Part shown: in pieces, positions 10,222 to 64,000 of the stretch
How the letters are laid out: every line of letters starts with the position of its first letter
Numbering within the stretch: the first letter of the stretch is position 1
DNA from: Lutibacter sp. A64
Lineage (GTDB): Bacteria > Bacteroidota > Bacteroidia > Flavobacteriales > Flavobacteriaceae
Reading direction: 5' to 3'
NCBI RefSeq assembly: GCF_022429565.1
Contig: NZ_CP092487.1
Location: 3,428,001 to 3,492,000 of the forward strand
DNA: 64,000 nt
The notes under the pieces: model-generated
What the model was told of the DNA's origin: nothing
What the model saw: only the letters and a program-made list of their open reading frames with translations
Database searches by the model: none
Position numbers and translations under genes: made by a program

Positions 10222-12318
10222 TTACCAGATTTTAACTCTATCTTCTGGTTTTAAATACATTTTATCTCCTTCAACAATATTAAATGCTTCGTAAAATGCA
10301 TCTACATTTTGCAGTGGCATATAAGCTCTATACATTCCTGGTGAATGTGGATCTGTTTTAATTAAATTTTTCATAGCCTCATCTCTCATAATAGTTCTCC
10401 AAATAGTAGCCCAAGACATATAAAAACGTTGTTCAGGTGTAAATCCATCAATAGCTGCAGGTTTTCCATTTTTCTCGTAGAAGATTTGTAAACCATCAAA
10501 AGCAGCATTAATACCACCTAAATCGCCAATATTTTCACCTAATGTAAACTCTCCATTTAAATTTACATCATCTATAGCTACTACAGCACTGAATTGGTCT
10601 ATTAATTTTTTACCTAATGCTGTAAATTGTTCTAAATCTTGTTCAGTCCACCAATTGTTTAAGTTACCGTCTGCATCGAATCTTGCACCAGAATCGTCAA
10701 AACAATGTGATATTTCGTGACCAATAACAGCTCCAATTCCTCCATAATTAACAGCTTCATCTGCTTGATAATTGTAGAAAGGTGGTTGTAGAATTGCTGC
10801 AGGAAAAACAATTTCATTATTTACAGGATTAAAATATGCATTTACAATTTGTGGTGCCATTCCCCATTCGGTTCTGTCAACTTCTTTTCCAAGTTTATTC
10901 ATGTTTTTTGTGAAGTTCCATTTTGCAATATTTATAGAGTTTTCAAAGTAAGAACCTCCGTCTTCAATAGCTTTTACATCCAATTCAGAATAATCTTTCC
11001 ATTTATCTGGATATGCTATTTTAACAGTCATTTTATCTAATTTTTCTATAGCTTTTATTTTGGTTTCAGGGCTCATCCATTCTAAAGCATTAATTCTTTT
11101 TTCGAAACCTAGCATAACATTTTTAATCATTTCCTCAGCTTTAGCTTTTGCTTCAGGTGGAAATTTTGCATCAACATATAATTTACCCAATGCTTCACCA
11201 ATAGAACCGTTTAGTGTTGATAAAGCTCTTTCGTTTCTTGGTCTTTGTTGTTTTGCACCGGTTAATTCTTTGCTGTAAAATTCCCAGTTTGCATTTTCTA
11301 ATTCTTCATTTAATAAACTAGCAGCTCTATCTATGGTTGTCCAGCGTAAATACAATTTAATGTTTTCAATAGAGCTTGAAGAGATTATATTTTCAACAGC
11401 TTTCATATATTTTGGTTGCATTACAATTACACGTTCAAGAGAGTTAATTCCTAAATTTTTAAAGTAAGAGTTCCAATTTATTGAGGGAGTTAAAGCAGTA
11501 AGTTCTTCAATAGTTTTTGGGTTGTAAAGTTTTCGAGTATCTCTAGATTCTTCTTTCGTAAACCTTGGTTCTGCTAAATTATACTCATAGTCAAATATTT
11601 TTTGAGCATTTGTTTTAGCCATTTCTTCAGTATCGCCAAAATATTGTAGCATTTTTGCAATATGTGCTATGTATTTTATTCGTTTTTCTTTGGTGTCTTC
11701 ATCTTGATCTACGTAATAGTCACGAGATAGCCCTAAGCCTGCAGGAGAAACATATCCAGCATTCATTTTACTATCTTTTAAATCGTTAAATACAGAAAAT
11801 CCAAAAAATCCACCATAACCATAAGGAGCTAATTCGGTAAGTAAATTTTGTAAATCGTTTATGTTATTTAAAGCCTCAATTTTATTTAAAAAGGGTAATA
11901 CTGGAGCAATACCTTGTTTATCTCTAGTTACAGTATCCATAATAGATTCGTAAAAGTTTACGGCCTTTTTTTGATCAGATTCTAAAGTTAAATTTCCTTG
12001 AGCATCTTTTAATTTTGGAAATTTGTTTTCAGCAATTGCTTCATTTAAAATTGTTAGAACATCTTCATCGGTTTTTTTTCTTAATTCGTTAAAGCTACCC
12101 CAAGAGGTTCTGTCTGCTGGAATTTCAGCTTTATCTAACCAGCTTCCATTAACATATCTAAAAAAATCGTCGTTTGGTTTTACTGAAGTGTCCATGTTTT
12201 CAACAATAATACCAGGTATTTTTTCTACTTTGGTTTGTGGTTCTTCTTTACAAGAAAAAACGAGTGATAATGCTATTATTGAAAAATATAACATTATGTT
12301 TTTGAGTTTGTTTTTCAT
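10222..12318 (-). CDS. M13 family zinc metallopeptidase lipoprotein
   Basis: This 698-aa protein resembles neprilysin and PepO. It has a lipoprotein signal (ALSLVFSC), an N-terminal helical M13 domain starting NMDTSVKPNDDFFRYVNGSW, and the C-terminal catalytic domain with VNAYFNPVNNEIVFPAAIL, the zinc motif GHEISHCFDD (HExxH), GENIGDLGG (third zinc ligand Glu) and the usual C-terminus ending in KIW. Length is normal. It is probably anchored to a membrane and cleaves peptides in the periplasm or outside. It stands alone between nadB and the MazG-like gene. Confidence 0.94.
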   Translation of the reverse strand: MKNKLKNIMLYFSIIALSLVFSCKEEPQTKVEKIPGIIVENMDTSVKPNDDFFRYVNGSWLDKAEIPADRTSWGSFNELRKKTDEDVLTILNEAIAENKFPKLKDAQGNLTLESDQKKAVNFYESIMDTVTRDKQGIAPVLPFLNKIEALNNINDLQNLLTELAPYGYGGFFGFSVFNDLKDSKMNAGYVSPAGLGLSRDYYVDQDEDTKEKRIKYIAHIAKMLQYFGDTEEMAKTNAQKIFDYEYNLAEPRFTKEESRDTRKLYNPKTIEELTALTPSINWNSYFKNLGINSLERVIVMQPKYMKAVENIISSSSIENIKLYLRWTTIDRAASLLNEELENANWEFYSKELTGAKQQRPRNERALSTLNGSIGEALGKLYVDAKFPPEAKAKAEEMIKNVMLGFEKRINALEWMSPETKIKAIEKLDKMTVKIAYPDKWKDYSELDVKAIEDGGSYFENSINIAKWNFTKNMNKLGKEVDRTEWGMAPQIVNAYFNPVNNEIVFPAAILQPPFYNYQADEAVNYGGIGAVIGHEISHCFDDSGARFDADGNLNNWWTEQDLEQFTALGKKLIDQFSAVVAIDDVNLNGEFTLGENIGDLGGINAAFDGLQIFYEKNGKPAAIDGFTPEQRFYMSWATIWRTIMRDEAMKNLIKTDPHSPGMYRAYMPLQNVDAFYEAFNIVEGDKMYLKPEDRVKIW

Positions 12319-20177: not shown

Positions 20178-21635
20178 ATGGCAAAAGTAGTTGTTTTAGG
20201 CGCTGGAATTTCTGGTCATACAGCGGTTTCTTATTTAAGTAGACACTTAAAAAAAGATCACGAAGTTGTAATGGTTTCACCTAACAGTAATTATCAATGG
20301 GTTCCATCAAATATTTGGGTTGGAGTTGGTTTAATGACACCAGATCAAGTAAAGTTTAAGTTAGCACCTGTTTATAAAAAAATGGGAGTAAATTATAAAC
20401 AAGCATTGGCTGTTTCTATTCATCCTGAAGGAGATACAGAGCAAAAGCAAGGTTTTGTCACTATTAAATATGTTTCTGAAGATAAAAAAGATACTATAGA
20501 AAAAGTTTCATATGATTATTTAATTAATGCTACAGGTCCAAAACTTAATTTTGAAGGAACTGAAGGTTTAGGTCCAAAATATTTTACAGAATCTGTATGT
20601 ACTTATGACCATGCTTCTCACGCTTGGACAAAGCTTCAAAGTGCTTTAGAAAAGATGGAAAATGGAGAAAAACAAACCTTTTTAATAGGTACTGGACATC
20701 CATTGGCAACTTGTCAAGGAGCTGCTTTTGAGTATGTATTAAATATAGCCTTCGAAATTAAAAAAAGAAAGCTATTGCATTTGGCTGAGATGATTTGGAT
20801 TACTAATGAATATGAATTAGGTGATTTTGGAATGGGAGGAGCCTATATTAAAAGAAATGGTTATGTAACTCCAACAAAAATATTTGCTGAATCAATTTTA
20901 AAAGAATACGGTATTCGTTGGATTAAAAGAGCAGGTGTTCAAAAAATAGAAAAAGGAGTTGCACATTACGAGAATTTAGAAGGAGAACATAAAACAGTTA
21001 ATTTTGATTTTGCAATGTTAATTCCTGGTTTTTCAGGTGCAGGAATGAAAGCTTTTAATAAAAATAATGAAGATATTAGCGCGGAAGTTTTTGCAGCAAA
21101 TGGAATGATGAAAGTAGATGCAGATTATACACCAAAACCATACGAAGAATGGAAAGCCGAAGATTGGCCTTTAACGTATCAAAGTGTAAAATACGATAAT
21201 GTGTATGCAGCTGGTATTGCATTTGCTCCACCACACGGTATGTCTAAACCAATGCAAAGCCCTAATGGAACAAAAATATTTCCAACGCCACCAAGAACAG
21301 GAATGCCATCGGGTGTAATTGGTAAAATTGTTGCCCAAAATATAATACATGCTATAAAAACAGGTAAAATAGAACACAAACATAAAGCATCTATGGCTAG
21401 TATGGGAGCTGCTTGTATAGTTTCTGCAGGATATGGAATTTCAAAAGGACAAGCTGCAGTTATGACAGTAAATCCAATAGTGCCAGATTGGGAAAAATAC
21501 CCAAAATGGGGACGAAATATTAACGATACTGTTGGAGTTGTTGGTACCGCAGGACATTGGATGAAGTTATTTATGCATTATATGTTTATTTATAAAGCAA
21601 AAGCGAAACCATTTTGGTGGTTAATACCTGAATAA
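20178..21635 (+). CDS. Sulfide:quinone oxidoreductase-like FAD protein
   Basis: This 485-aa flavoprotein starts with the dinucleotide fold KVVVLGAGISGHTAV and has NYQWVPSNIWVGVG and INATGPKLNFEGTEG, both usual in SQR/FCSD relatives. It has exactly three cysteines, C141, C179 and C413, in the regions where SQR enzymes keep their redox cysteines. The C-terminus (AGHWMKLFMHYMFIYKAKAKPFWW) is amphipathic and aromatic, as expected for monotopic membrane binding. The likely reaction is sulfide to persulfide or polysulfide with quinone reduction. It is in one group with the rhodanese and DUF3365 lipoproteins. The SQR subtype cannot be fixed from sequence inspection. Confidence 0.85.
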   Translation: MAKVVVLGAGISGHTAVSYLSRHLKKDHEVVMVSPNSNYQWVPSNIWVGVGLMTPDQVKFKLAPVYKKMGVNYKQALAVSIHPEGDTEQKQGFVTIKYVSEDKKDTIEKVSYDYLINATGPKLNFEGTEGLGPKYFTESVCTYDHASHAWTKLQSALEKMENGEKQTFLIGTGHPLATCQGAAFEYVLNIAFEIKKRKLLHLAEMIWITNEYELGDFGMGGAYIKRNGYVTPTKIFAESILKEYGIRWIKRAGVQKIEKGVAHYENLEGEHKTVNFDFAMLIPGFSGAGMKAFNKNNEDISAEVFAANGMMKVDADYTPKPYEEWKAEDWPLTYQSVKYDNVYAAGIAFAPPHGMSKPMQSPNGTKIFPTPPRTGMPSGVIGKIVAQNIIHAIKTGKIEHKHKASMASMGAACIVSAGYGISKGQAAVMTVNPIVPDWEKYPKWGRNINDTVGVVGTAGHWMKLFMHYMFIYKAKAKPFWWLIPE

Positions 21636-50394: not shown

Positions 50395-53300
50395 ATGAAA
50401 AAAATTACTTTTATTCGGTTTTTCGCTTTTTTAATATTGATGTTTTTGATAACTGTTGGTTATTCACAAGAGGTAAATAATAAAAGGATTGGTTTAAGTC
50501 CTGATAAAAGTCAAGTTTCTTCCAAAGCATTAAGTAAAGGGGCATTGCAATCTAAATCCCCACAAGGTTCATCAAGTATTTTAGTGCCAAATAATGATGC
50601 TACTTATGGGTCTACGCCAAAAGAATTAGTTGAAAATATTTTATCATCTACCTGTTTAACAATAGGAGACGTTAGATTTGGTTATTATAGAAGAAATAAT
50701 GATAATTGGAGTTCTAACTTTGGTAATACAACATTAGATAGGCAATTAGGTTATTTTAATGATGGAAGTGCTTCTAATTTTTTAATTGATGAAGGTTTGT
50801 TGCTTTCAACAGGTAAGATTAAAAATGCTATGGGGCCGAGTTCTTCAGGAAGTTATTCTGATGAAATGAATGAGAATGCTAGTGATCCTGATTTAGAGCT
50901 TATTACTGGATATAGAATGTATGATGCAGCAGTTCTTGAAATTAACTTTACACCAATTGGAACAAAAATTGAGTTTCAATTTGTTTTTGCTTCCGATGAA
51001 TATTTAGAATATTGTGGGACGCAATATGAGGATGTTTTTGGTTTCTTTTTAAGCGGTCCAGGTATTGCAGGAGGACAAGGTTATCAAAATGATGCTGTTA
51101 ATTTAGCTAAATTACCTAATGGTGATCCAATTACAATTAATACAATACATCCTTATGTTCCTTCAAATATTAACAATATCCCAGTAGCTGCGCAAAATGC
51201 AGCTTATTACGCTAATAATAATATAAACATTTCAACTGAATTTGATGGTGGAACTGTTGTGTTAACCGCTGAATATACAGGTTTAGTATCTGGGCAAGAG
51301 TACAAGATGAAAATGGCTATTGCAGATGCAAGTGATCAACAATATGATGCGGGAGTTTTTTTAAAAGCAAGAAGTTTTACTTCGAATGCATTGGATATAA
51401 CTAATCCTGAAGCTGTTTGTTTTGGAGAAACAGTTGATATTACGGCTTCTGAAATAACAGCTGGTAGTACATTGTCTGGACCATATACTTACTGGGAAGA
51501 TGAAGATGCTACTATACCTTATAATACTCCAACTACAGCAACTGATGGTACATATTATATTAAAGCCATTGATGGCAATAGTGGTTGTGTAATTGTTAAG
51601 CCAGTTGTTGTAACGGTTAATTCTGTTGATGTTGTTGAAATTGAATCAGAACATAATAACTTACTTTGTATTGGGGGTAATGATGGCTCATTTAAAGTTG
51701 AAGCTTCTGGAGGTGTTGCACCTTATTCTTATAGTTTAAATAATATTGATTTTAGTAATACAACAGGAGAATTTAATGGATTGACAGCAGGTACATATAC
51801 TGTATATGCTAAAGATATGATTGGTTGTGATGATTTAACACCATTAACAATTAATATTGCTCAGCCAGGAGGTGAAGTTTGTAAAATTGAAAAATCGAAT
51901 TGTCCGCCTTCAGATTTGGCTTCAGTTTGTTCAGATGGAGATGGAGGTACACCAGTATTTTGGACACCACCTCAATTTTCTTACACTTGCTGTACTGCAG
52001 GTGGCGGAGGAGATCCATATTCATTTTTTATGGAATTTGATTTACCAGAAAGTAATTTTGGAGCAAATTGTTGGGAGTTTAATTATGCACAAAGAATAGG
52101 TCTTGATAATTTAAGACTATTTCAATCATCAGGTTCTGTAGGTTCAAAATATACAGATTCGTATTTTATTAGTCCAAAACAATATTTCTTTAATTCAAGT
52201 GGAGGAACTGATATTAATATTGAATTAATAGACGTAACTGCTACTGTAAATTGGAGATTAGATGTTTTAGATCCAAATACAAATGCTGTTTTATATTCAT
52301 ATTCTATAACAGGTATTACTTCAAATGGTCAGCAAACTATTTTAATTCCAGATACAGTGCCAAATGGAGTTTATAAATTAAAATTTAATTTTTCTAGTAA
52401 TGATGCCAATGGAGGTGATAAAATTGAAGTTGATAAGGCTTATTACAACGCAACAATTGTTGACACAGATTGTGCAGGAGGAATTAATTTTGTAGTAACT
52501 TCTACACATATTCCAGGTGATGAATTTGTTGTGGGAACTACACCAGTAATTTATACTGCTACATTGTCTATTTTAAATGAAAATCCAATAACAAAAGAAT
52601 GTATTTTTGATGTTGTTGTTAATGATCCTTCAGCACCTACAGGTGAAGCAGAACAAGAGTTTTGCGCCGTTAATAACCCTACAGTTGCCAACTTAACGAC
52701 AACAACAGGGGAAGCCATTCAATGGTATGAAGATGCGACTGGAGGAACAGCATTGGATAGTACTATAGCTTTAGAAAATGAAGAAGATTATTATGCTACT
52801 CAAACTATAGGAGGTTGTGAAAGTACTACAAGACTTAAAGTTGTGGTTACTATAAGTGATCCAAATGCTCCAACAGGTGAATCAATTCAAACATTTTGTT
52901 CGTCAGACAATCCAACTGTTGGAAATTTAATAGCAATTGGTGATAATATTAAATGGTATGCAGAAGCAGGAGATAGATCTCCTTTAAGTTCAACAGATTT
53001 TTTAGATGATGGTGAAAACTATTTTGCAACTCAAACTATTGGAAGTTGCGAAAGTGATGAGAGATTTGAAGTGACTGTTACAATAAATACATTCATAAAC
53101 TCAAATGCTGGAGATGATCAGCCATTATGTGATACTTCAACTTTTAATATGTCGGCTAATAGTCCTTCACCCGGAACAGGGCTTTGGACAATAGAGAGTG
53201 GAACGGCAACAATTACAACGCCAAATTCACCTAATACAACCGTTACGGGTGTAAATTCAGGTAGTGCTGTTACTTTACGATGGACAATAGAAAATGGCGC

Positions 53301-56300
53301 TTGTAGTGATTATGATGATGTTGTTTTGACAAATAAAGCCTTAGACGATGCCAGTTTTAGTTATTCTGTGGCAGCATATTGTGCAGATGGAACAGATCCA
53401 ACACCTACAATTAGTGGATTAGCAGGAGGAACATTTAGTTCAACCACAGGATTGGTAATAAATGCAAATACAGGAGCGATAGATTTAAGTGCATCAACAC
53501 CTGGAACTTATACAGTAACCTATTCAACAGGTACAGCAGGTACTTGTACAAATAGCAGTACAGATTCAGTAACCATTAACGCTTTTGACGACGCTAGTTT
53601 TAGTTATTCAGGTTCACCATATTGTGCAGATGCAACTGATCCAGAACCAACAATTACAGGATTAGCGGGAGGAACATTTAGTTCAACAGCTGGATTGGTT
53701 ATAGATTCAACTACAGGGGAGGTAGATTTAGATGCTTCAACACCGGGAACATATATAGTTACTTATACTACAAATGGTACGTGCCCTAATAGTAGTACGC
53801 AATCTATTACAATTAATGATTTACCAACGGTATCAGTAAGTGGCGCAGGAGAATTGACATGTGCGGTTACAAGTTTAACATTAACAGCTGTACCAGTAGT
53901 AGATGGAACACCTTCTTACCAATGGTACAATGCTTCAGGAGCAATTACAGGAGCAACATCAGCTACGTATTCAGCAACAACACCAGACACTTATTATGTA
54001 ATTGTAAAAGATGGAGATGATGGATGTACAGTAACATCTTCTAATTTAGAAGTTACACAAGACATAACAGATCCAACGGTATCAGTAAGTGGTGCAGGAG
54101 AATTGACATGTGCGGTTACAAGTTTAACATTAACAGCTGTGCCAGTAGTAGATGGAACACCTTCTTACCAATGGTACAATGCTTCAGGAGCAATTACAGG
54201 AGCAACATCAGCTACGTATTCAGCAACAACACCAGACACTTATTATGTAATTGTAAAAGATGGAGATGATGGATGTACAGTAACATCTTCTAATTTAGAA
54301 GTTACACAAGACATAACAGATCCAACGGTATCAGTAAGTGGCGCAGGAGAATTGACATGTGCGGTTACAAGTTTAACATTAACAGCTGTACCAGTAGTAG
54401 ATGGAACACCTTCTTACCAATGGTACAATGCTTCAGGAGCAATTACAGGAGCAACATCAGCTACGTATTCAGCAACAACACCAGACACTTATTATGTAAT
54501 TGTAAAAGATGGAGATGATGGATGTACAGTAACATCTTCTAATTTAGAAGTTACACAAGACATAACAGATCCAACGGTATCAGTAAGTGGTGCAGGAGAA
54601 TTGACATGTGCGGTTACAAGTTTAACATTAACAGCTGTGCCAGTAGTAGATGGAACACCTTCTTACCAATGGTACAATGCTTCAGGAGCAATTACAGGAG
54701 CAACATCAGCTACGTATTCAGCAACAACACCAGACACTTATTATGTAATTGTAAAAGATGGAGATGATGGATGTACAGTAACATCTTCTAATTTAGAAGT
54801 TACACAAGACATAACAGATCCAACGGTATCAGTAAGTGGTGCAGGAGAATTGACATGTGCGGTTACAAGTTTAACATTAACAGCTGTGCCAGTAGTAGAT
54901 GGAACACCTTCTTACCAATGGTACAATGCTTCAGGAGCAATTACAGGAGCAACATCAGCTACGTATTCAGCAACAACACCAGACACTTATTATGTAATTG
55001 TAAAAGATGGAGATGATGGATGTACAGTAACATCTTCTAATTTAGAAGTTACACAAGACATAACAGATCCAACGGTATCAGTAAGTGGTGCAGGAGAATT
55101 GACATGTGCGGTTACAAGTTTAACATTAACAGCTGTGCCAGTAGTAGATGGAACACCTTCTTACCAATGGTACAATGCTTCAGGAGCAATTACAGGAGCA
55201 ACATCAGCTACGTATTCAGCAACAACACCAGACACTTATTATGTAATTGTAAAAGATGGAGATGATGGATGTACAGTAACATCTTCTAATTTAGAAGTTA
55301 CACAAGACATAACAGATCCAACGGTATCAGTAAGTGGCGCAGGAGAATTGACATGTGCGGTTACAAGTTTAACATTAACAGCTGTGCCAGTAGTAGATGG
55401 AACACCTTCTTACCAATGGTACAATGCTTCAGGAGCAATTACAGGAGCAACATCAGCTACGTATTCAGCAACAACACCAGACACTTATTATGTAATTGTA
55501 AAAGATGGAGATGATGGATGTACAGTAACATCTTCTAATTTAGAAGTTACACAAGACATAACAGATCCAACGGTATCAGTAAGTGGTGCAGGAGAATTGA
55601 CATGTGCGGTTACAAGTTTAACATTAACAGCTGTGCCAGTAGTAGATGGAACACCTTCTTACCAATGGTACAATGCTTCAGGAGCAATTACAGGAGCAAC
55701 ATCAGCTACGTATTCAGCAACAACACCAGACACTTATTATGTAATTGTAAAAGATGGAGATGATGGATGTACAGTAACATCTTCTAATTTAGAAGTTACA
55801 CAAGACATAACAGATCCAACGGTATCAGTAAGTGGCGCAGGAGAATTGACATGTGCGGTTACAAGTTTAACATTAACAGCTGTACCAGTAGTAGATGGAA
55901 CACCTTCTTACCAATGGTACAATGCTTCAGGAGCAATTACAGGAGCAACATCAGCTACGTATTCAGCAACAACACCAGACACTTATTATGTAATTGTAAA
56001 AGATGGAGATGATGGATGTACAGTAACATCTTCTAATTTAGAAGTTACACAAGACATAACAGATCCAACGGTATCAGTAAGTGGTGCAGGAGAATTGACA
56101 TGTGCGGTTACAAGTTTAACATTAACAGCTGTGCCAGTAGTAGATGGAACACCTTCTTACCAATGGTACAATGCTTCAGGAGCAATTACAGGAGCAACAT
56201 CAGCTACGTATTCAGCAACAACACCAGACACTTATTATGTAATTGTAAAAGATGGAGATGATGGATGTACAGTAACATCTTCTAATTTAGAAGTTACACA

Positions 56301-59300
56301 AGACATAACAGATCCAACGGTATCAGTAAGTGGTGCAGGAGAATTGACATGTGCGGTTACAAGTTTAACATTAACAGCTGTGCCAGTAGTAGATGGAACA
56401 CCTTCTTACCAATGGTACAATGCTTCAGGAGCAATTACAGGAGCAACATCAGCTACGTATTCAGCAACAACACCAGACACTTATTATGTAATTGTAAAAG
56501 ATGGAGATGATGGATGTACAGTAACATCTTCTAATTTAGAAGTTACACAAGACATAACAGATCCAACGGTATCAGTAAGTGGCGCAGGAGAATTGACATG
56601 TGCGGTTACAAGTTTAACATTAACAGCTGTGCCAGTAGTAGATGGAACACCTTCTTACCAATGGTACAATGCTTCAGGAGCAATTACAGGAGCAACATCA
56701 GCTACGTATTCAGCAACAACACCAGACACTTATTATGTAATTGTAAAAGATGGAGATGATGGATGTACAGTAACATCTTCTAATTTAGAAGTTACACAAG
56801 ACATAACAGATCCAACGGTATCAGTAAGTGGCGCAGGAGAATTGACATGTGCGGTTACAAGTTTAACATTAACAGCTGTGCCAGTAGTAGATGGAACACC
56901 TTCTTACCAATGGTACAATGCTTCAGGAGCAATTACAGGAGCAACATCAGCTACGTATTCAGCAACAACACCAGACACTTATTATGTAATTGTAAAAGAT
57001 GGAGATGATGGATGTACAGTAACATCTTCTAATTTAGAAGTATTACAAGATATCGTAACACCAAGTGCAGCGATTACAGGTAATGCAGAATTAACGTGTG
57101 CATTAGAGGAAATTAGTTTAAATGCAAATGGAAGTTCAGATAATCAGTCAGCAGAATTAAGTTATGCTTGGGTTGGACCAGATAATTATACAGCAACAAC
57201 AGAAATTATAGCTGTAAGTTCACCAGGCGTTTATACAGTAACAATAACTGATAAAGACAATGGATGTACTTATGAAACAGAGGTTGAAGTATTACAAGAT
57301 ATCGTAACACCAAGTGCAGCGATTACAGGTAATGCAGAATTAACGTGTGCATTAGAGGAAATTAGTTTAAATGCAAATGGAAGTTCAGATAATCAGTCAG
57401 CAGAATTAAGTTATGCTTGGGTTGGACCAGATAATTATACAGCAACAACAGAAATTATAGCTGTAAGTTCACCAGGCGTTTATACAGTAACAATAACTGA
57501 TAAAGACAATGGATGTACTTATGAAACAGAGGTTGAAGTATTACAAGATATCGTAACACCAAGTGCAGAGATTACAGGTAATGCAGAATTAACGTGTGCA
57601 TTAGAGGAAATTAGTTTAAATGCAAATGGAAGTTCAGATAATCAGTCAGCAGAATTAAGTTATGCTTGGGTTGGACCAGATAATTATACAGCAACAACAG
57701 AAATTATAGCTGTAAGTTCACCAGGAGTTTATACAGTAGTTGTAACAGATGGAGATAATGGATGTTCAGAAGAAGACAGCGTAACGGTATTACAAGACAT
57801 TGTAACACCAAGTGTAGAAATTACAGGAAATGCAGAATTAACGTGTGCATTGGAAGAAATTACATTAAATGCAAACGGAAATTCAGATAATCAGTCAGCA
57901 GAATTAAGTTATGCTTGGAGCGGACCAAATAATTATACCGCAACAACAGAAGAGATAACGGTAAGTTCACCAGGAGTTTATACCGTAGTTGTAACAGACG
58001 CAGATAATGGATGTTCAAATGAAGACAGCGTAACGGTATTACAAGATATTGTAACACCAAGTCTTGAGATCACAGGAAACGAGGAATTAACCTGTACATT
58101 AGAAGAAATTACATTAAAAGCTAATGGAAGTTCAGACAATCAATCGGCAAATTTAAGTTATGCTTGGAGCGGACCAAATAATTATACCGCAACCACAGAA
58201 GAGATAACGGTAAGTTCACCAGGAGTTTATACCGTAGTTGTAACAGACGCAGATAATGGATGTTCAAATGAAGACAGCGTAACGGTATTACAAGATATTG
58301 TAACACCAAGTCTTGAGATCACAGGAAACGAGGAATTAACCTGTACATTAGAAGAAATTACATTAAAAGCTAATGGAAGTTCAGACAATCAGTCAGCAGA
58401 TTTAAGTTATGCTTGGAGCGGACCAAATAATTATACCGCAACCACAGAAGAGATAACGGTAAGTTCACCAGGAGTTTATACCGTAGTTGTAACAGACGCA
58501 GATAATGGATGTTCAAATGAAGACAGCGTAACGGTATTACAAGATATTGTAACACCAAGTCTTGAGATCACAGGAAACGAGGAATTAACCTGTAGATTAG
58601 AAGAAATTACATTAAAAGCAAATGGAAGTTCAAACAATCAATCGGCAGATTTAAGTTATGCTTGGAGCGGACCAAATAATTATACCGCAACCACAGAAGA
58701 GATAACGGTAAGTTCACCAGGAGTTTATACAGTAGTTGTAACAGACGCAGATAATGGATGTTCTTATGAAACAGAGGTTAGAGTAACTCAAGATAGAAGT
58801 CAAGCGAATGTTGTTTTAACAGCTGAAACAACGGAGTTAAATTGTAATGTAACAAGTATTGTGTTAGATGCTAGTGAGAGTACTGGAGGTGATAATTTTT
58901 ATTGGAAAGGTGGAGCGACTTCTTCTAGTATTACTGTAACAGAGCCTGGTTCGTATTATGTTTTTTATACAAAAGATTCTAATGGTTGTACAATTTCAAA
59001 AGAGATTACAATCACTCAAAATATAGAAAAACCAATTGTTACTATAACAGGAGGTTCAGAGTTGACTTGTGAAATTACAAGTGTAATATTAGAAGCAAGC
59101 AGTTCAACAGTTCAAGGAGATGTAAGTTATTTATGGAGTACTGGAGCGGCAACAGCAACAATTGATGTAAATGAGCCAGGAATATATACAGTAACTGTAA
59201 CAGATTCAGAAAATGGATGTAGTACAACAAGTGAAGACTTTACAGTAACAGAAGATGTAGAAAAACCAGTTGTTACTATAACAGGAGAATCAGAGTTGAC

Positions 59301-61239
59301 TTGTGAAATTACAAGCGTAACATTAGATGCAAGTAGTTCAACAGTTCAAGGTGACGTAAGTTATTTATGGAGCACTGGAGCAACAACAGCAACAATTGAT
59401 GTAACTGAGCCAGGTGATTATACAGTAACTGTAACTGATTCATTGAATGGATGTAGTGCAATAAGTGAAACTTTTACAGTAACACAAAACATTACAGACG
59501 TTATTGCAATTATAACAGGAGAATCAGAGTTGACTTGTGAAATTACAAGCGTAACATTAGATGCAAGTAGTTCAACAGTTCAAGGTGACGCAAGTTATTT
59601 ATGGAGCACTGGAGCAACAACAGCAACAATTGATGTAACTGAGCCAGGTGATTATACTGTAACCGTAACAGATTCAGAAAATGGATGTGGTGCAATAAGT
59701 GAAACTTTTACAGTAACACAAAACATTACAGACGTTATTGCAATTATAACAGGAGAATCAGAGTTAACTTGTGAAATTACAAGCGTAACATTAGATGCAA
59801 GTAGTTCAACAGTTCAAGGTGACGCAAGTTATTTATGGAGCACTGGAGCAACAACAGCAATAATTGATGTAACTGAGCCTGGTGATTATACAGTAACCGT
59901 AACAGATTCATTGAATGGATGTAGTGCAATAAGTGAAACTTTTACAGTAACACAAAACATTACAGACGTTATTGCAATTATAACAGGAGAATCAGAGTTG
60001 ACTTGTGAAATTACAAACGTAACATTAGATGCAAGTAGTTCAACAGTTCAAGGAGATGTAAGTTATTTATGGAGCACTGGAGCAACAGCAGCAACAATTG
60101 ATGTAACTGAACCAGGTGATTATACAGTAACCGTAACAGATTCAGAAAATGGATGTAGTGCAATAAGTGAAACTTTTACAGTAACACAAAACATTACAAA
60201 TGTTATTGCAATTATAACAGGAGAATCAGAATTGACTTGTGAAATTACAAGCGTAACATTAGATGCAAGTAGTTCAACAGTTCAAGGTGACGCAAGTTAT
60301 TTATGGAACACTGGGGCAACAACAGCAACAATTGATGTAACTGAGCCAGGTGATTATACAGTAACTGTAACAGATTCAGAAAATGGATGTTCTCTAACAA
60401 GTGAAATTTTTAAAGTAACAGAAAACATTACAGAAGTAGTTGCTGTTATTACAGGGGAATCAGAGTTAACATGTTCAATAGAAAGTGTAACCTTAGATGC
60501 AAGTAGTTCAACAGTTCAAGGTAACGCAAGTTATTTATGGAATACTGGAGCAACAACAGCAACAATTGAGGTGTTACAAGCAGGAAGTTATACGGTAACG
60601 GTAACTGATATGAATAATGGTTGTAGTGCTTTAAGTGAAGCCTTTATAGTAACAGAAGATTTTACAGTAGAAACTATTGATAATATAGATAATGTTGTAA
60701 CACTTTGTATTGAAGATTTAGAAATAGATCTTACAACTCTATTAGTTGATGATTATGAATCTGGAGGTACTTGGGTAGATGAATTTGATAGTGGTGGCCT
60801 GACAGGTGATTATTTCGATCCTTCAATAGTGAATTTAGGAGCATATCAATTTACATATACAGAACCAGGAGAATGTGGTAGAATTATAAAAGTATATGTA
60901 GAAGTAAATGATGATTGTGTTGTGCTACCTTGTTCAACTAGTGAGTTAGAGATTTCAAAAGTTGTAACCCCTAATAATGATGGATTTAATGATCAATTTG
61001 AAATATCAGGATTAGAAGGTTGTGGTTTTACCTATGATGTTCAAATATTTAACCGTTGGGGTAAAATGGTATATCAATCAAATAATTACCAAAACGATTG
61101 GAAAGGTAATTTTAACACTGGAGGAGCAACTATTGGTTCAAGCACAGAGTTACCAACAGGAACATATTATTACATTGTTAATGTATTAAGTAGTGGTTTT
61201 GAACCTATTACTGGATATATATATTTAGGAACTAACTAA
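50395..61239 (+). CDS. Giant repeat adhesin with type B T9SS C-terminal domain
   Basis: This 3614-aa secreted protein begins with a signal peptide (ending VGYSQE). A choice-of-anchor L domain (about residues 60-330; IGTKIEFQFVFASDEYLEYC) is followed by a SprB-like repeat (about 420-500), a jelly-roll-like region, two PTGE-type Ig-like units (about 750-900) and two further Ig units. Then come three tandem arrays: 13 x 83 aa (1144-2222), 7 x 83 aa (2223-2803) and 7 x 78 aa (2881-3426). Each unit has two cysteines (xELTC ... NGC/DGC), so each likely forms a disulfide-closed Ig-like domain. The end (about 3517-3614; VVTPNNDGFNDQFEI, FNRWGKMVYQS) is the gliding-associated CHU_C domain that directs export by T9SS. 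It heads an operon with PorP/SprF and a PorE-like gene. Role: long surface stalk for adhesion or gliding (inference). Confidence 0.93.
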   Translation: MKKITFIRFFAFLILMFLITVGYSQEVNNKRIGLSPDKSQVSSKALSKGALQSKSPQGSSSILVPNNDATYGSTPKELVENILSSTCLTIGDVRFGYYRRNNDNWSSNFGNTTLDRQLGYFNDGSASNFLIDEGLLLSTGKIKNAMGPSSSGSYSDEMNENASDPDLELITGYRMYDAAVLEINFTPIGTKIEFQFVFASDEYLEYCGTQYEDVFGFFLSGPGIAGGQGYQNDAVNLAKLPNGDPITINTIHPYVPSNINNIPVAAQNAAYYANNNINISTEFDGGTVVLTAEYTGLVSGQEYKMKMAIADASDQQYDAGVFLKARSFTSNALDITNPEAVCFGETVDITASEITAGSTLSGPYTYWEDEDATIPYNTPTTATDGTYYIKAIDGNSGCVIVKPVVVTVNSVDVVEIESEHNNLLCIGGNDGSFKVEASGGVAPYSYSLNNIDFSNTTGEFNGLTAGTYTVYAKDMIGCDDLTPLTINIAQPGGEVCKIEKSNCPPSDLASVCSDGDGGTPVFWTPPQFSYTCCTAGGGGDPYSFFMEFDLPESNFGANCWEFNYAQRIGLDNLRLFQSSGSVGSKYTDSYFISPKQYFFNSSGGTDINIELIDVTATVNWRLDVLDPNTNAVLYSYSITGITSNGQQTILIPDTVPNGVYKLKFNFSSNDANGGDKIEVDKAYYNATIVDTDCAGGINFVVTSTHIPGDEFVVGTTPVIYTATLSILNENPITKECIFDVVVNDPSAPTGEAEQEFCAVNNPTVANLTTTTGEAIQWYEDATGGTALDSTIALENEEDYYATQTIGGCESTTRLKVVVTISDPNAPTGESIQTFCSSDNPTVGNLIAIGDNIKWYAEAGDRSPLSSTDFLDDGENYFATQTIGSCESDERFEVTVTINTFINSNAGDDQPLCDTSTFNMSANSPSPGTGLWTIESGTATITTPNSPNTTVTGVNSGSAVTLRWTIENGACSDYDDVVLTNKALDDASFSYSVAAYCADGTDPTPTISGLAGGTFSSTTGLVINANTGAIDLSASTPGTYTVTYSTGTAGTCTNSSTDSVTINAFDDASFSYSGSPYCADATDPEPTITGLAGGTFSSTAGLVIDSTTGEVDLDASTPGTYIVTYTTNGTCPNSSTQSITINDLPTVSVSGAGELTCAVTSLTLTAVPVVDGTPSYQWYNASGAITGATSATYSATTPDTYYVIVKDGDDGCTVTSSNLEVTQDITDPTVSVSGAGELTCAVTSLTLTAVPVVDGTPSYQWYNASGAITGATSATYSATTPDTYYVIVKDGDDGCTVTSSNLEVTQDITDPTVSVSGAGELTCAVTSLTLTAVPVVDGTPSYQWYNASGAITGATSATYSATTPDTYYVIVKDGDDGCTVTSSNLEVTQDITDPTVSVSGAGELTCAVTSLTLTAVPVVDGTPSYQWYNASGAITGATSATYSATTPDTYYVIVKDGDDGCTVTSSNLEVTQDITDPTVSVSGAGELTCAVTSLTLTAVPVVDGTPSYQWYNASGAITGATSATYSATTPDTYYVIVKDGDDGCTVTSSNLEVTQDITDPTVSVSGAGELTCAVTSLTLTAVPVVDGTPSYQWYNASGAITGATSATYSATTPDTYYVIVKDGDDGCTVTSSNLEVTQDITDPTVSVSGAGELTCAVTSLTLTAVPVVDGTPSYQWYNASGAITGATSATYSATTPDTYYVIVKDGDDGCTVTSSNLEVTQDITDPTVSVSGAGELTCAVTSLTLTAVPVVDGTPSYQWYNASGAITGATSATYSATTPDTYYVIVKDGDDGCTVTSSNLEVTQDITDPTVSVSGAGELTCAVTSLTLTAVPVVDGTPSYQWYNASGAITGATSATYSATTPDTYYVIVKDGDDGCTVTSSNLEVTQDITDPTVSVSGAGELTCAVTSLTLTAVPVVDGTPSYQWYNASGAITGATSATYSATTPDTYYVIVKDGDDGCTVTSSNLEVTQDITDPTVSVSGAGELTCAVTSLTLTAVPVVDGTPSYQWYNASGAITGATSATYSATTPDTYYVIVKDGDDGCTVTSSNLEVTQDITDPTVSVSGAGELTCAVTSLTLTAVPVVDGTPSYQWYNASGAITGATSATYSATTPDTYYVIVKDGDDGCTVTSSNLEVTQDITDPTVSVSGAGELTCAVTSLTLTAVPVVDGTPSYQWYNASGAITGATSATYSATTPDTYYVIVKDGDDGCTVTSSNLEVLQDIVTPSAAITGNAELTCALEEISLNANGSSDNQSAELSYAWVGPDNYTATTEIIAVSSPGVYTVTITDKDNGCTYETEVEVLQDIVTPSAAITGNAELTCALEEISLNANGSSDNQSAELSYAWVGPDNYTATTEIIAVSSPGVYTVTITDKDNGCTYETEVEVLQDIVTPSAEITGNAELTCALEEISLNANGSSDNQSAELSYAWVGPDNYTATTEIIAVSSPGVYTVVVTDGDNGCSEEDSVTVLQDIVTPSVEITGNAELTCALEEITLNANGNSDNQSAELSYAWSGPNNYTATTEEITVSSPGVYTVVVTDADNGCSNEDSVTVLQDIVTPSLEITGNEELTCTLEEITLKANGSSDNQSANLSYAWSGPNNYTATTEEITVSSPGVYTVVVTDADNGCSNEDSVTVLQDIVTPSLEITGNEELTCTLEEITLKANGSSDNQSADLSYAWSGPNNYTATTEEITVSSPGVYTVVVTDADNGCSNEDSVTVLQDIVTPSLEITGNEELTCRLEEITLKANGSSNNQSADLSYAWSGPNNYTATTEEITVSSPGVYTVVVTDADNGCSYETEVRVTQDRSQANVVLTAETTELNCNVTSIVLDASESTGGDNFYWKGGATSSSITVTEPGSYYVFYTKDSNGCTISKEITITQNIEKPIVTITGGSELTCEITSVILEASSSTVQGDVSYLWSTGAATATIDVNEPGIYTVTVTDSENGCSTTSEDFTVTEDVEKPVVTITGESELTCEITSVTLDASSSTVQGDVSYLWSTGATTATIDVTEPGDYTVTVTDSLNGCSAISETFTVTQNITDVIAIITGESELTCEITSVTLDASSSTVQGDASYLWSTGATTATIDVTEPGDYTVTVTDSENGCGAISETFTVTQNITDVIAIITGESELTCEITSVTLDASSSTVQGDASYLWSTGATTAIIDVTEPGDYTVTVTDSLNGCSAISETFTVTQNITDVIAIITGESELTCEITNVTLDASSSTVQGDVSYLWSTGATAATIDVTEPGDYTVTVTDSENGCSAISETFTVTQNITNVIAIITGESELTCEITSVTLDASSSTVQGDASYLWNTGATTATIDVTEPGDYTVTVTDSENGCSLTSEIFKVTENITEVVAVITGESELTCSIESVTLDASSSTVQGNASYLWNTGATTATIEVLQAGSYTVTVTDMNNGCSALSEAFIVTEDFTVETIDNIDNVVTLCIEDLEIDLTTLLVDDYESGGTWVDEFDSGGLTGDYFDPSIVNLGAYQFTYTEPGECGRIIKVYVEVNDDCVVLPCSTSELEISKVVTPNNDGFNDQFEISGLEGCGFTYDVQIFNRWGKMVYQSNNYQNDWKGNFNTGGATIGSSTELPTGTYYYIVNVLSSGFEPITGYIYLGTN
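53824..57060 (+). repeat. Array 1: 13 tandem 249-bp units inside the adhesin
   Basis: Thirteen units start every 249 bp from 53824 to 56812 with no spacer. The encoded 83-aa units are the same (VSVSGAGELTC ... DGDDGCTVTSSNLEVTQDIT), except at the outer edges. Two synonymous sites vary: the Gly codon GGC/GGT early in the unit and the Val codon GTA/GTG. Haplotypes by copy: C/A in 1, 3, 9; C/G in 7, 12, 13; T/G in the other seven. Confidence 0.97.
57061..58803 (+). repeat. Array 2: 7 tandem 249-bp units
   Basis: Units begin at 57061, 57310, 57559, 57808, 58057, 58306 and 58555. They encode ITGNAELTC ... SSPGVYTV ... NGC-type Ig-like units. Copies 1 and 2 are identical in protein; copy 3 begins like copies 1-2 and ends like copies 4-7 (VVVTD in place of TITDK), a mosaic. 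Copies 5-7 are nearly identical to each other. Confidence 0.95.
59035..60672 (+). repeat. Array 3: 7 tandem 234-bp units
   Basis: Units begin at 59035, 59269, 59503, 59737, 59971, 60205 and 60439 and encode 78-aa Ig-like units of ITGESELTCEITSVTLDASS type. They differ more than array 1, with scattered changes (GDVSY or GDASY, SENGC or SLNGC) distributed as a patchwork rather than a tree-like order. A divergent unit lies just before, at 58804-59034. Confidence 0.94.
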
Positions 61240-61250
61240 AAAATAAATCT

Positions 61251-62174
61251 ATGAAACGTATAATTATACTTACAGTAATGTTGATTTTAGGATTAGAATA
61301 TTCTAATGCGCAACAGTTGCCACAGTTTACTCAATATATGTACAATACAATTGCTATCAACCCAGCTTATGCGGGTAGTAGAGACGCATTAAGTATTGTA
61401 GGTTTAAATCGAAATCAGTGGGCTGGTTTTGACGGAGGGCCACAAACACAAACATTATCTATTCATTCTCCTTTAAGAAATGAACAAGTAGGTTTAGGTT
61501 TGTCTGTTATAAATGATAAATCAGGTTATGAAAACTTTACTTATATGTATGCAGATTTCTCATATACTATTAAGGCAAGTGAAGAAGTTGATTTAAGTTT
61601 TGGTTTAAAAGCAGGGATGACTTACTATAAACTAGCAGAAGAATTATACAATGCAACTGAAGTTAATCAAGACCCTTATTTTAACGACAAGTTAAATAGA
61701 TGGAATTCAAACTTTGGAGCGGGTATTTTATTACATTCTAATAAATGGTACGCCGGTTTATCAATACCAAAATTAATAAATCACGATTTAAATAACGATA
61801 CAGAATATGCAGCTTTAGAGAGAGTTCATTATTATGCAATTGGAGGTTATGTTTTTGATTTAAATGAAAATTTAAAGTTAAAACCTTCATTTATGTTTAA
61901 GTATACAAAAGGAGCTCCAATTTCTACAGATTTAACAGCTAACTTTTTATTTAATGAAAAGTTTTGGTTGGGAGGCTCATATAGATTTAATGGAGATCAA
62001 AAAGCATTAGGAGCTCTTGTTGATTTTCAAGTTACAGACCAATTTAGAGTAGGGTATACTTACGAGATACCTACAGGTGAAATTAGACCCTATACTTCAG
62101 GATCACATGAAATTTTGTTGATGTATGAATTTAAATTTTTGAAAAGAAAACAAAAATCTCCAAGATATTTTTAA
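61251..62174 (+). CDS. PorP/SprF family T9SS outer membrane protein
   Basis: This 307-aa protein has a signal peptide ending in SNAQ and the family opening QLPQFTQYMYNTIAINPAYAGSRDALSIVGLNRNQWAGFDGGPQTQ in parts, then a 14-strand-like beta-barrel pattern (GLGLSVINDKSGYE, FRVGYTYEI) and a C-terminal LLMYEFKFLKRK. PorP/SprF proteins anchor or help present type B T9SS cargo, and their genes commonly follow that of the cargo. Here it starts 11 bp after the adhesin stop, which strongly suggests that it serves that adhesin. Confidence 0.94.
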   Translation: MKRIIILTVMLILGLEYSNAQQLPQFTQYMYNTIAINPAYAGSRDALSIVGLNRNQWAGFDGGPQTQTLSIHSPLRNEQVGLGLSVINDKSGYENFTYMYADFSYTIKASEEVDLSFGLKAGMTYYKLAEELYNATEVNQDPYFNDKLNRWNSNFGAGILLHSNKWYAGLSIPKLINHDLNNDTEYAALERVHYYAIGGYVFDLNENLKLKPSFMFKYTKGAPISTDLTANFLFNEKFWLGGSYRFNGDQKALGALVDFQVTDQFRVGYTYEIPTGEIRPYTSGSHEILLMYEFKFLKRKQKSPRYF

Positions 62175-62182
62175 TCCAATAA

Positions 62183-64000
62183 ATGATGAAAATTATGAAA
62201 AATATAAGTATTTTATTTGTTGCTTTAGTTTTAATAAGTACATCAGTATTTGGACAAACAGCAAAACAAAAAAGAGCAGAAAGAGAGTTTAATAGTTTTT
62301 CGTTTGTAAAAGCAATTAACACTTATGAAAAATTAATTGATACAAGTTTTAATAAGCATTATGCAATGCGACAACTTGGAGATGCCTACATTATGTTACG
62401 TGAGCCAGAAAAAGCATTAGAAATTTACAAAGAAGTTGTAAAACAAGAAAATGTTCCTTCTGAATATTATTTATATTATGCACAAGCTTTACGTGCAAAT
62501 GGAAAATACGAAGCTTCTAAAAAATGGATGAAAAAATTTGAAGAAGCTGGTAATGAAGAAGATTCTAGAGTAAAACGTTTCTTTAAAAATGATGATTTAG
62601 CAAGCGCTATATTTAATACTTTAGAAAAAAATACAATTCAAAAATTACCAATTAATACAGAGTTTAATGAGTTTGGAGCTGTTGAATTAAATAATGAAAT
62701 AATATTTAGTTCATCAAGAAATGAAGGTGTTTCTATTAAAAGGTTATATGCTTGGGATAAACAACCAATGCTAGATTTGTATAGTGTTTCTAAAGATGAA
62801 GCTTCTGTTGAAGCAACATCAAAAATAGTAGGAAGTGTAAATACAATCCATCATGATGGCCCAGCAACCTTTAATAGTGATGGTACTAAAATGTATTTTT
62901 CTAGAAACAACTACTATGAGTCAAAGAAAATAAACGATGCTCAAGGGATTATGCATGTTGGAATCTTTAGCGCAGATTTAATTGATGGTGAATGGAAGAA
63001 TGTTCAACCTTCAAATTTAAATAATCCTAATTATATAGTATATCATCCGTCATTAAGTAAAGATGGTAAAAAACTGTACTTTGCATCAGACATGCCAGGT
63101 GGTTTTGGTGGAACTGATATTTATGTTAGTACTATTTTAGAAGATGGTACATTAGATAGTCCTATTAATTTAGGAGCTGTGATAAATACTGAAGGGAATG
63201 AAGCTTTTCCATTTATTAGTGAAGAAGGAACTTTGTATTTTTCTTCAGATGGACATGTTGGTTTAGGTTTAATGGATGTATTTGCTTCAGTTAAAGACAA
63301 TAATAACAACATTGTTAATGTTATAAATTTAGGGGAGCCAATAAATAGTAAAAAAGATGATTTTGCCTATTATTTAGCAAAAGATGGTTTTAACGGCTAT
63401 GTTTCTTCTAATAGAAAAGGTGGCGTAGGAGGAGACGATATTTATGCTTTTACAAGAATTCCTCCTTTAACTTTAAAAGGAACTGTTTACGATGCTGTTA
63501 ATAATGAACCTTTAGTAGGTGCAAAAATAGTGTTAGCCAGAGAAAACGGTGAAGAATTAGCTTATTTTATAACTGAAGAAGATGGCGCGTATGAACATTT
63601 AATTCCTAGAGATGAAAAATTTGTTTTAAAAGGATCTAAAGAAAAATATCAAGATGTAAGTAAAAACTTTAATTCTTTTGGTTTAGAAAAAGCAAAAGAA
63701 TTAATAGTAGATTTAAATATTGCTATGAAACCAATTGAAGATGTTGTAGTTTTGGCAGATCTTGAAACTATTTATTTTGATTTAGATAAATATAATATTA
63801 GACCAGATGCTTCTATTGAATTAGATAAAGTAGTTGCTTTAATGAATAAATATCCAGGAATGGTTATTAGATTAGAGTCTCATACAGACAGTAGAGCAAA
63901 TGATGCTTATAATATGGTATTATCAAACAATAGAGCTAAATCTACTTATGAATATATTATTTCTAAAGGTATAGATGCTTCTAGAATTACAAAGTATGAA
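62183..64000 (+). CDS. PorE-like OmpA-family protein, 3' end missing
   Basis: The frame runs open to the window end (606 codons seen). Starts at 62183, 62186 or 62195 are all possible. The order is: signal peptide (ending SVFGQ), a TPR-like helical region (about residues 35-120; YYLYYAQALRANGKYEAS), a WD40-like PD40 propeller (about 150-420; DGPATFNSDGTKMYFSR, HPSLSKDGKKLYFASDMPGG), a carboxypeptidase-regulatory-like domain (about 427-505) and an OmpA peptidoglycan-binding domain (from about 525; TIYFDLDKYNIRPDA, LESHTDSRANDAYN). This is the PorE domain order of T9SS. It lies 8 bp after PorP/SprF. Confidence 0.9.
   Translation, partial: MMKIMKNISILFVALVLISTSVFGQTAKQKRAEREFNSFSFVKAINTYEKLIDTSFNKHYAMRQLGDAYIMLREPEKALEIYKEVVKQENVPSEYYLYYAQALRANGKYEASKKWMKKFEEAGNEEDSRVKRFFKNDDLASAIFNTLEKNTIQKLPINTEFNEFGAVELNNEIIFSSSRNEGVSIKRLYAWDKQPMLDLYSVSKDEASVEATSKIVGSVNTIHHDGPATFNSDGTKMYFSRNNYYESKKINDAQGIMHVGIFSADLIDGEWKNVQPSNLNNPNYIVYHPSLSKDGKKLYFASDMPGGFGGTDIYVSTILEDGTLDSPINLGAVINTEGNEAFPFISEEGTLYFSSDGHVGLGLMDVFASVKDNNNNIVNVINLGEPINSKKDDFAYYLAKDGFNGYVSSNRKGGVGGDDIYAFTRIPPLTLKGTVYDAVNNEPLVGAKIVLARENGEELAYFITEEDGAYEHLIPRDEKFVLKGSKEKYQDVSKNFNSFGLEKAKELIVDLNIAMKPIEDVVVLADLETIYFDLDKYNIRPDASIELDKVVALMNKYPGMVIRLESHTDSRANDAYNMVLSNNRAKSTYEYIISKGIDASRITKYE

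Follow-up and report, generated by a model that had tools for sequence, protein, structure and literature searches.

Why should a protein-coding stretch of a bacterial chromosome repeat itself almost without change, and what might such a repeat be for? A locus of Lutibacter sp. A64 raises this question. We analysed a window of 64,000 nucleotides of its genome (NZ_CP092487.1, positions 3,428,001 to 3,492,000 of the forward strand), in which a giant open reading frame (ORF) contains thirteen consecutive 249-bp units of nearly identical DNA, here called array 1. Taking the evidence as a whole, we consider it quite probable that array 1 is a homogenising array in the stalk of a giant adhesin, a type B substrate of the type IX secretion system (T9SS). 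Coordinates of the features are given in Table 1.

Tandem Repeats Finder reported array 1 with a period of 249, 12.9 copies and 99% match. Direct comparison of the 13 units revealed two variable unit positions and no others, 21 (GGC/GGT, glycine) and 69 (GTA/GTG, valine). The haplotypes listed in an initial annotation, which had been made from the sequence alone, were matched exactly in all 13 units: C/A in units 1, 3 and 9, C/G in units 7, 12 and 13, and T/G in units 2, 4, 5, 6, 8, 10 and 11. That annotation had also described 13 units identical in protein with two synonymous sites. The sites stand, but full identity over 83 amino acids (aa) holds for 12 units: unit 13 equals unit 12 over 230 of the 249 bases, as far as position 57041, and is identical in protein up to its hand-over into the following array (array 2), ending in EVLQDIVT where the other units have EVTQDITD. 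When the unit DNA was searched against our genome, a single contig of 4.03 Mb, 13 matches were returned, every one in array 1, and thus no further unit copies elsewhere in this genome that could act as conversion donors. Near-identity is confined to array 1 among the three arrays of the stalk, because the units of arrays 2 and 3 have mean pairwise differences of 14.6% and 13.6%, respectively.

We compared array 1 with its counterpart in a sister species (G026; our genome, G000). G026 has 24 units, all identical over the first 230 bases; in 23 the identity extends to all 249, and the last unit departs from it at base 240. Positions 36, 154 and 155 set every one of these units apart from ours, and all carry C and G at our two variable sites. 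Homogenisation is thus species-specific, and 24 uniform units with fixed differences of their own bear out the earlier proposal of recent expansion and strong homogenisation. Copy number, which had been expected to vary between strains, differs between the two species (13 versus 24, one genome each). Uniformity of this kind would result from recombination between near-identical units, by unequal crossing over and perhaps by gene conversion, which would also alter the copy number.

The initial annotation had drawn further conclusions from the interspersed haplotypes and the constant protein, and these gained no such support. There was no significant signal in the haplotype order: 4 of the 12 neighbouring pairs share a haplotype, no more telling than what shuffling gives (P 0.66), and the lag-6 matches, seen in 5 of 7 pairs, have P 0.048 by themselves but 0.099 over lags 1–7, on which ground a block duplication read from the order was rejected. 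The C/G class had been regarded as recombinant, but three of the four gametes at two sites need no recombination, and this together with the sister species as outgroup ruled the idea out. Because G026 has C and G throughout, C/G is most simply the ancestral class, with C/A and T/G each derived by one change. Selection for a constant protein was also rejected; the case for it is weak, since it consists of two changes, both of which are synonymous with a chance of 0.067, and the array of Lutibacter profundi described below has a Glu/Val change. Where array 1 gives way to array 2 (window positions 57041-57060), the sequence leaves the unit from base 231 here and from base 240 in G026 (LQDIV versus TQDIV), as if the border between the arrays had been moved by conversion.

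The domain matches place array 1 in a surface protein. The ORF matched NF038133 (choice_anch_L) with 192.5 bits (cut-off 27), PF13585 (CHU_C) with 82.9 bits and TIGR04131 with 46.8 bits (cut-off 35; 52.4 bits in a genome-wide search). Its head has a signal-peptide-like start, as judged by eye, followed by the choice-of-anchor L domain, one SprB repeat at aa 421-452, which is the single SprB match of the whole adhesin, and an Ig_7 domain. The three arrays belong to one immunoglobulin (Ig)-like domain family, with a cysteine pair and a tryptophan invariant in 15 aligned unit pairs. The array-1 unit scored 24.2 bits against Pfam Ig_7, under the cut-off of 27.3, and a profile of the repeats gave weak sequence matches to three chains of solved structures (E 1.1e-4 to 0.008). 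Structure prediction for two units yielded two Ig-like sandwiches with a mean predicted local distance difference test score (pLDDT) of 83.3 and a predicted template modelling score (pTM) of only 0.56. Array 1 would then be the stalk part adjoining the head; each 83-aa unit would form an Ig-like domain with one cysteine pair, and 13 of them in a row would make a rod that keeps the N-terminal head away from the cell. It is plausible from this predicted tandem that the copy number sets the length of the stalk.

We next consider how the two species came to have such similar units. Synonymous divergence (dS) between G000 and G026 was estimated for 18 segments, namely 16 chosen genes, the C-terminal region of the adhesin and the gene for its carrier (see below), from 46 ORFs of at least 100 aa in the window. 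It ranged from 0.07 to 0.68 with a median of 0.46. For the array-1 unit, with the C/G haplotype compared, dS was 0.016, or one change in 64 synonymous sites, whereas it was 0.29 for the domain before array 1, 0.215 for the C-terminal region and at least 0.12 for pairs of array-2 units. Array 1 is far closer between the species than its flanks (0.016 versus 0.22–0.29), which suggests recent exchange: the array may lately have passed between the two Lutibacter lineages, or into them from a third, by homologous recombination in the repeats, after which its copy number changed in each lineage. One or no synonymous difference in the unit has a chance of 2.8e-5 at the dS of the C-terminal region, and the spread of dS over the 18 segments suggests further exchanged tracts. 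On the other hand, the chance rises to 0.067 at the lowest gene dS in the window (0.07), the unit holds only 64 synonymous sites, and array 1 is not unique, as dS was 0.02 in 1 of 42 pairs of array-3 units and 0.08 in several. No donor was found: in 397 sampled genomes of the family, with two candidates scored per genome among the matches listed and G026 not among them, full-length matches occurred in our genome only, and those elsewhere were partial, the strongest covering 86 bases. We prefer exchange, which is compatible with a homogenising stalk array, while judging the chances for and against it to be about balanced.

The same closeness might instead arise if conversion biased to the majority unit slowed the divergence of the array in both species, with no exchange. 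Homogenisation is indeed very active, as seen in the 24 uniform units of G026 and the two variable sites of G000. However, a bias has to be assumed, because unbiased homogenisation leaves the long-term substitution rate unlowered, and array 2 of G026, although itself homogenised for the most part, differs from ours by a dS of at least 0.12. We therefore regard biased conversion as unlikely. Apart from the adhesin, two genes of the window (10222-12318 and 20178-21635) had dS values to G026 of 0.07 and 0.10, compared with 0.2–0.7 for the other segments, as if they had been exchanged between the species.

The locus was then followed through the genus. Close matches to the C-terminal region of the adhesin (E below 1e-38) were present in 30 of 38 Lutibacter genomes, ours included; the remaining eight had weaker C-terminal matches only, the best with E 9e-17. 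Seven of the 30 genes were counted as complete (G000, G026, G010, which is L. profundi, G008, G029, G019 and G003). G016 and G013 were counted as broken, as their contigs include an upstream stop codon but run out 1.1 and 1.4 kb short of the C-terminal domain. All six complete relatives have lpdA and pabB upstream and the carrier gene downstream, as here (the G026 stretch reaches only part of pabB). Within this constant setting, residues 21-340 of the seven complete genes fell into five groups mutually without BLAST similarity at E 0.001. The heads of G000 and G010 are of the choice_anch_L type and that of G026 is VWA; G029 and G019 have one type in common, and G008 and G003 each have a type of their own. 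Between G000 and G026, the DNA match stops 17 bases into our ORF, the rest of the head has no DNA match at the same locus in G026, and colinear homology is back at 53569; the stretch 53294-53585 also aligns, at 75%, with the G026 domain found there. Where our adhesin begins, G026 has an extra ORF of 163 aa with a signal-like start (L032, 2814-3305), for which no NCBIfam match was obtained at E 0.01.

The repeated domain also varies. The main array of L. profundi is built from a 249-bp SprB-repeat unit present about 26 times, and units 1–25 vary at a single site, through a Glu/Val change found in units 6 and 14. Since our protein has a single SprB match, a different domain has been amplified at the same locus. 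Protein matches of our unit in Lutibacter outside G000 and G026 were at most 55% identical. Judging from these sequences, heads, stalk units and copy number seem to change faster than the anchor. A more far-reaching and rather doubtful proposal is that the locus serves as an exchangeable adhesin chassis, in which the anchor (type B domain, PorP-like and PorE-like proteins) would be conserved, unrelated heads swapped and different kinds of stalk domain newly amplified, the near-identical array providing homology for passing whole arrays, and perhaps heads, between species.

The initial annotation had warned that short-read assembly could collapse or misorder the copies, and drafts of the genus show that the warning was sound. 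In 23 of 27 Lutibacter drafts with the gene, the assembly breaks in or near the stalk, with a contig end no more than 3.3 kb upstream of the C-terminal domain, against an expectation of 3.65 (P 1.4e-20; contig counts were rounded and the 3.3-kb limit was chosen from the data). Among the best 80 carrier relatives in named genomes, 54 have a contig end in the 10 kb upstream and 15 in the 10 kb downstream, the discordant cases being 40 versus 1; seven of these records are also among the Lutibacter drafts, and so the two counts overlap. Of the intact loci among the 80, 23 of 26 had an array of period at least 150 with a match of 60–98%, and the match was at least 95% in 4 of 26. Intact genes in these assemblies therefore tend to have diverged arrays. 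Such breakage raises the possibility that the copy number or haplotype order of array 1 is itself an assembly artefact. We think this improbable: our genome is a single 4.03-Mb contig in which the open frame continues through all units, two further single-contig genomes, one of them sequenced with PacBio, have comparable arrays, and a collapse would be unlikely to yield interspersed variants. Near-identical arrays are real, because that of L. profundi comes from the PacBio genome (PMC5219744). The gene is often cut off in drafts of Lutibacter, and of Flavobacteriaceae more widely, and draft-based surveys of such adhesins are therefore biased.

Table 1. Features of the adhesin locus (window positions).
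Feature	Position	Strand	Basis
Giant adhesin ORF, 3614 aa, T9SS type B substrate	50395..61239	+	NF038133 choice_anch_L, TIGR04131, PF13585 CHU_C
N-terminal head (3' limit approximate)	50395..53293	+	Choice-of-anchor L domain, SprB repeat, Ig_7 domain
Domain preceding array 1, colinear homology to G026 resumed, dS 0.29	53569..53823	+	Comparison with sister species G026
Array 1, 12 full 249-bp units and 230 bases of a 13th, two synonymous variable sites	53824..57041	+	Tandem Repeats Finder, direct unit comparison
Array 2, seven 249-bp units, same register as array 1	57061..58803	+	Repeat finding, unit comparison
Array 3, seven 234-bp units	59029..60666	+	Repeat finding, unit comparison
T9SS type B C-terminal sorting domain	60949..61227	+	CHU_C aa 3519-3611; TIGR04131 aa 3519-3609
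PorP/SprF-family carrier, 307 aa, no cysteine	61251..62174	+	PF11751 294 bits, TIGR03519 276.6 bits
PorE-like gene, extends beyond window end (642 aa in L111)	62183..64000	+	Own ORF; domains from G026 orthologue

The genes downstream bear on how the adhesin is held. Type B substrates form specific pairs with PorP/SprF carriers and are often encoded just upstream of them; such a gene beside a type B substrate is common, not universal (PMC12618676). In our genome, as in 6 of the 6 complete relatives, a PorP/SprF-like gene lies directly downstream of the adhesin. It is followed here by a gene that we call PorE-like from its TPR, PD40 and OmpA domains, the Pfam matches being taken from the G026 orthologue only, and a set with a PorE-like gene has been speculated to be a static complex (PMC12618676). 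From its C-terminal domain, the adhesin would be exported by the type IX system and passed to the carrier of the neighbouring gene; the PorE-like OmpA protein would then probably fix it to the cell wall. Mainly from this gene set, we favour a fixed anchor over a gliding one.

Alternatively, the protein might be a gliding adhesin of the SprB type, moved along the cell by its SprF-like carrier. It shares the substrate class and the carrier family with SprB/SprF of Flavobacterium johnsoniae, where the carrier gene also lies directly downstream (PMC12618676, PMC12635249). Unlike SprF, which requires a Cys-Xaa-Cys tail for gliding (PMC12635249), the carrier at this locus is free of cysteine in 7 of 7 genomes (ours and the six complete relatives) and hence has no such tail. 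SprB/SprF further differs from our locus in that a PorE-like gene follows the carrier here, as in the set speculated to be static. Gliding was not observed in L. profundi; its genome paper mentions adhesins and gliding genes, and SprB is absent from the portion of its text considered here (PMC5219744). A gliding role thus appears very doubtful.

Several points weigh against a homogenising stalk array with a fixed anchor. The Cys-Xaa-Cys tail was found in 0 of 8 PorP-family carriers of our genome, so that its absence does not single out this carrier and the cysteine contrast is weakened for want of a positive control in the genome; either nothing in this genome glides by the Cys-Xaa-Cys route or the motif is not general. 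With the pTM value given above and a mean pLDDT of 63.8 to 83.3 over the five models, the angle between the domains is uncertain, and the prediction used 15 repeat pairs that all come from the same protein. The copy numbers 13 and 24 are those of assemblies, and their comparison is one of species, with one genome each. Haplotype order does not discriminate between unequal crossing over and gene conversion.

These points noted, a homogenising stalk array has known parallels. MpAFP, the ice adhesin of Marinomonas primoryensis, is likewise a giant adhesin, with roughly 120 identical 104-residue Ig-like tandem repeats, but it belongs to another bacterial group, and its repeat is Ca2+-dependent and present in far more copies (PMC4083281). 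The Periscope Proteins SasG, Rib and Sgo_0707, whose copy number is proposed to alter by recombination between DNA repeats, also combine an N-terminal head, a stalk of highly identical tandem domains on which short reads fail, and a C-terminal anchor (PMC8201768, PMC9704523). Such proteins are built of tandem domains longer than 50 residues whose DNA identity is very high; their repeats fold one by one into a rod, vary in number between strains and stand between a functional domain and a surface anchor. Array 1 has 83-aa units with two variable sites in 13, its copy number was compared between two species (13 and 24), and the choice_anch_L match and the type B sorting domain would correspond to the two ends. 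In contrast to them, the Lutibacter adhesin probably uses the type IX system for export and a PorP-like protein as anchor, and both the head and the kind of repeated domain vary at one locus within the genus.

GhpA of Aureispira forms a grappling hook, a multi-chain assembly with a hook-shaped tip. It resembles our adhesin in being a giant surface protein with an Ig-like stalk (PDB 9flp and others) and in its C-terminus, residues 5812-5885 of which align with our aa 3516-3598, in the region of the type B domain. The match to the whole adhesin (phmmer E 7.2e-105 over 16 stretches) is inflated by repeats on both sides; GhpA fragments align to the two-unit model at 20–23% identity.

The mechanism is ordinary for identical-repeat stalks, and the length and tip of such Periscope-like proteins seem to change quickly, in a way known in principle from other bacteria. 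The locus extends the range of identical-repeat stalks to an adhesin of the type IX secretion system and offers a clean species pair, with 13 versus 24 units, shared neighbour genes and unlike heads, for measuring homogenisation, copy-number change and exchange. Differing heads and a re-amplified stalk make this species comparison a good test case. In the literature on giant genes in Bacteroidetes and on SprB-repeat copy number, nothing on this locus was found among the matches listed; we do not claim that head exchange is unpublished.

Related genes occur elsewhere in the genome. Of the eight PorP-family carriers (L201-L208), L207 has a single cysteine among its last 40 residues. Two PorP-like paralogues outside the window, L202 and L203 (G000:C1 near 2722654 and 3391665), lie in a 2.7-kb stretch that is 98.2% identical in DNA, and each adjoins a giant type B ORF (4159 and 5199 aa). 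For two further type B domains elsewhere in G000, no tandem arrays were detected in the 3.3 kb around each, a stretch smaller than those genes. Type B domain matches were also obtained in open frames near 2336010 (10083 aa) and 3538109 (8587 aa) of the genome, that of the latter being under the family cut-off.

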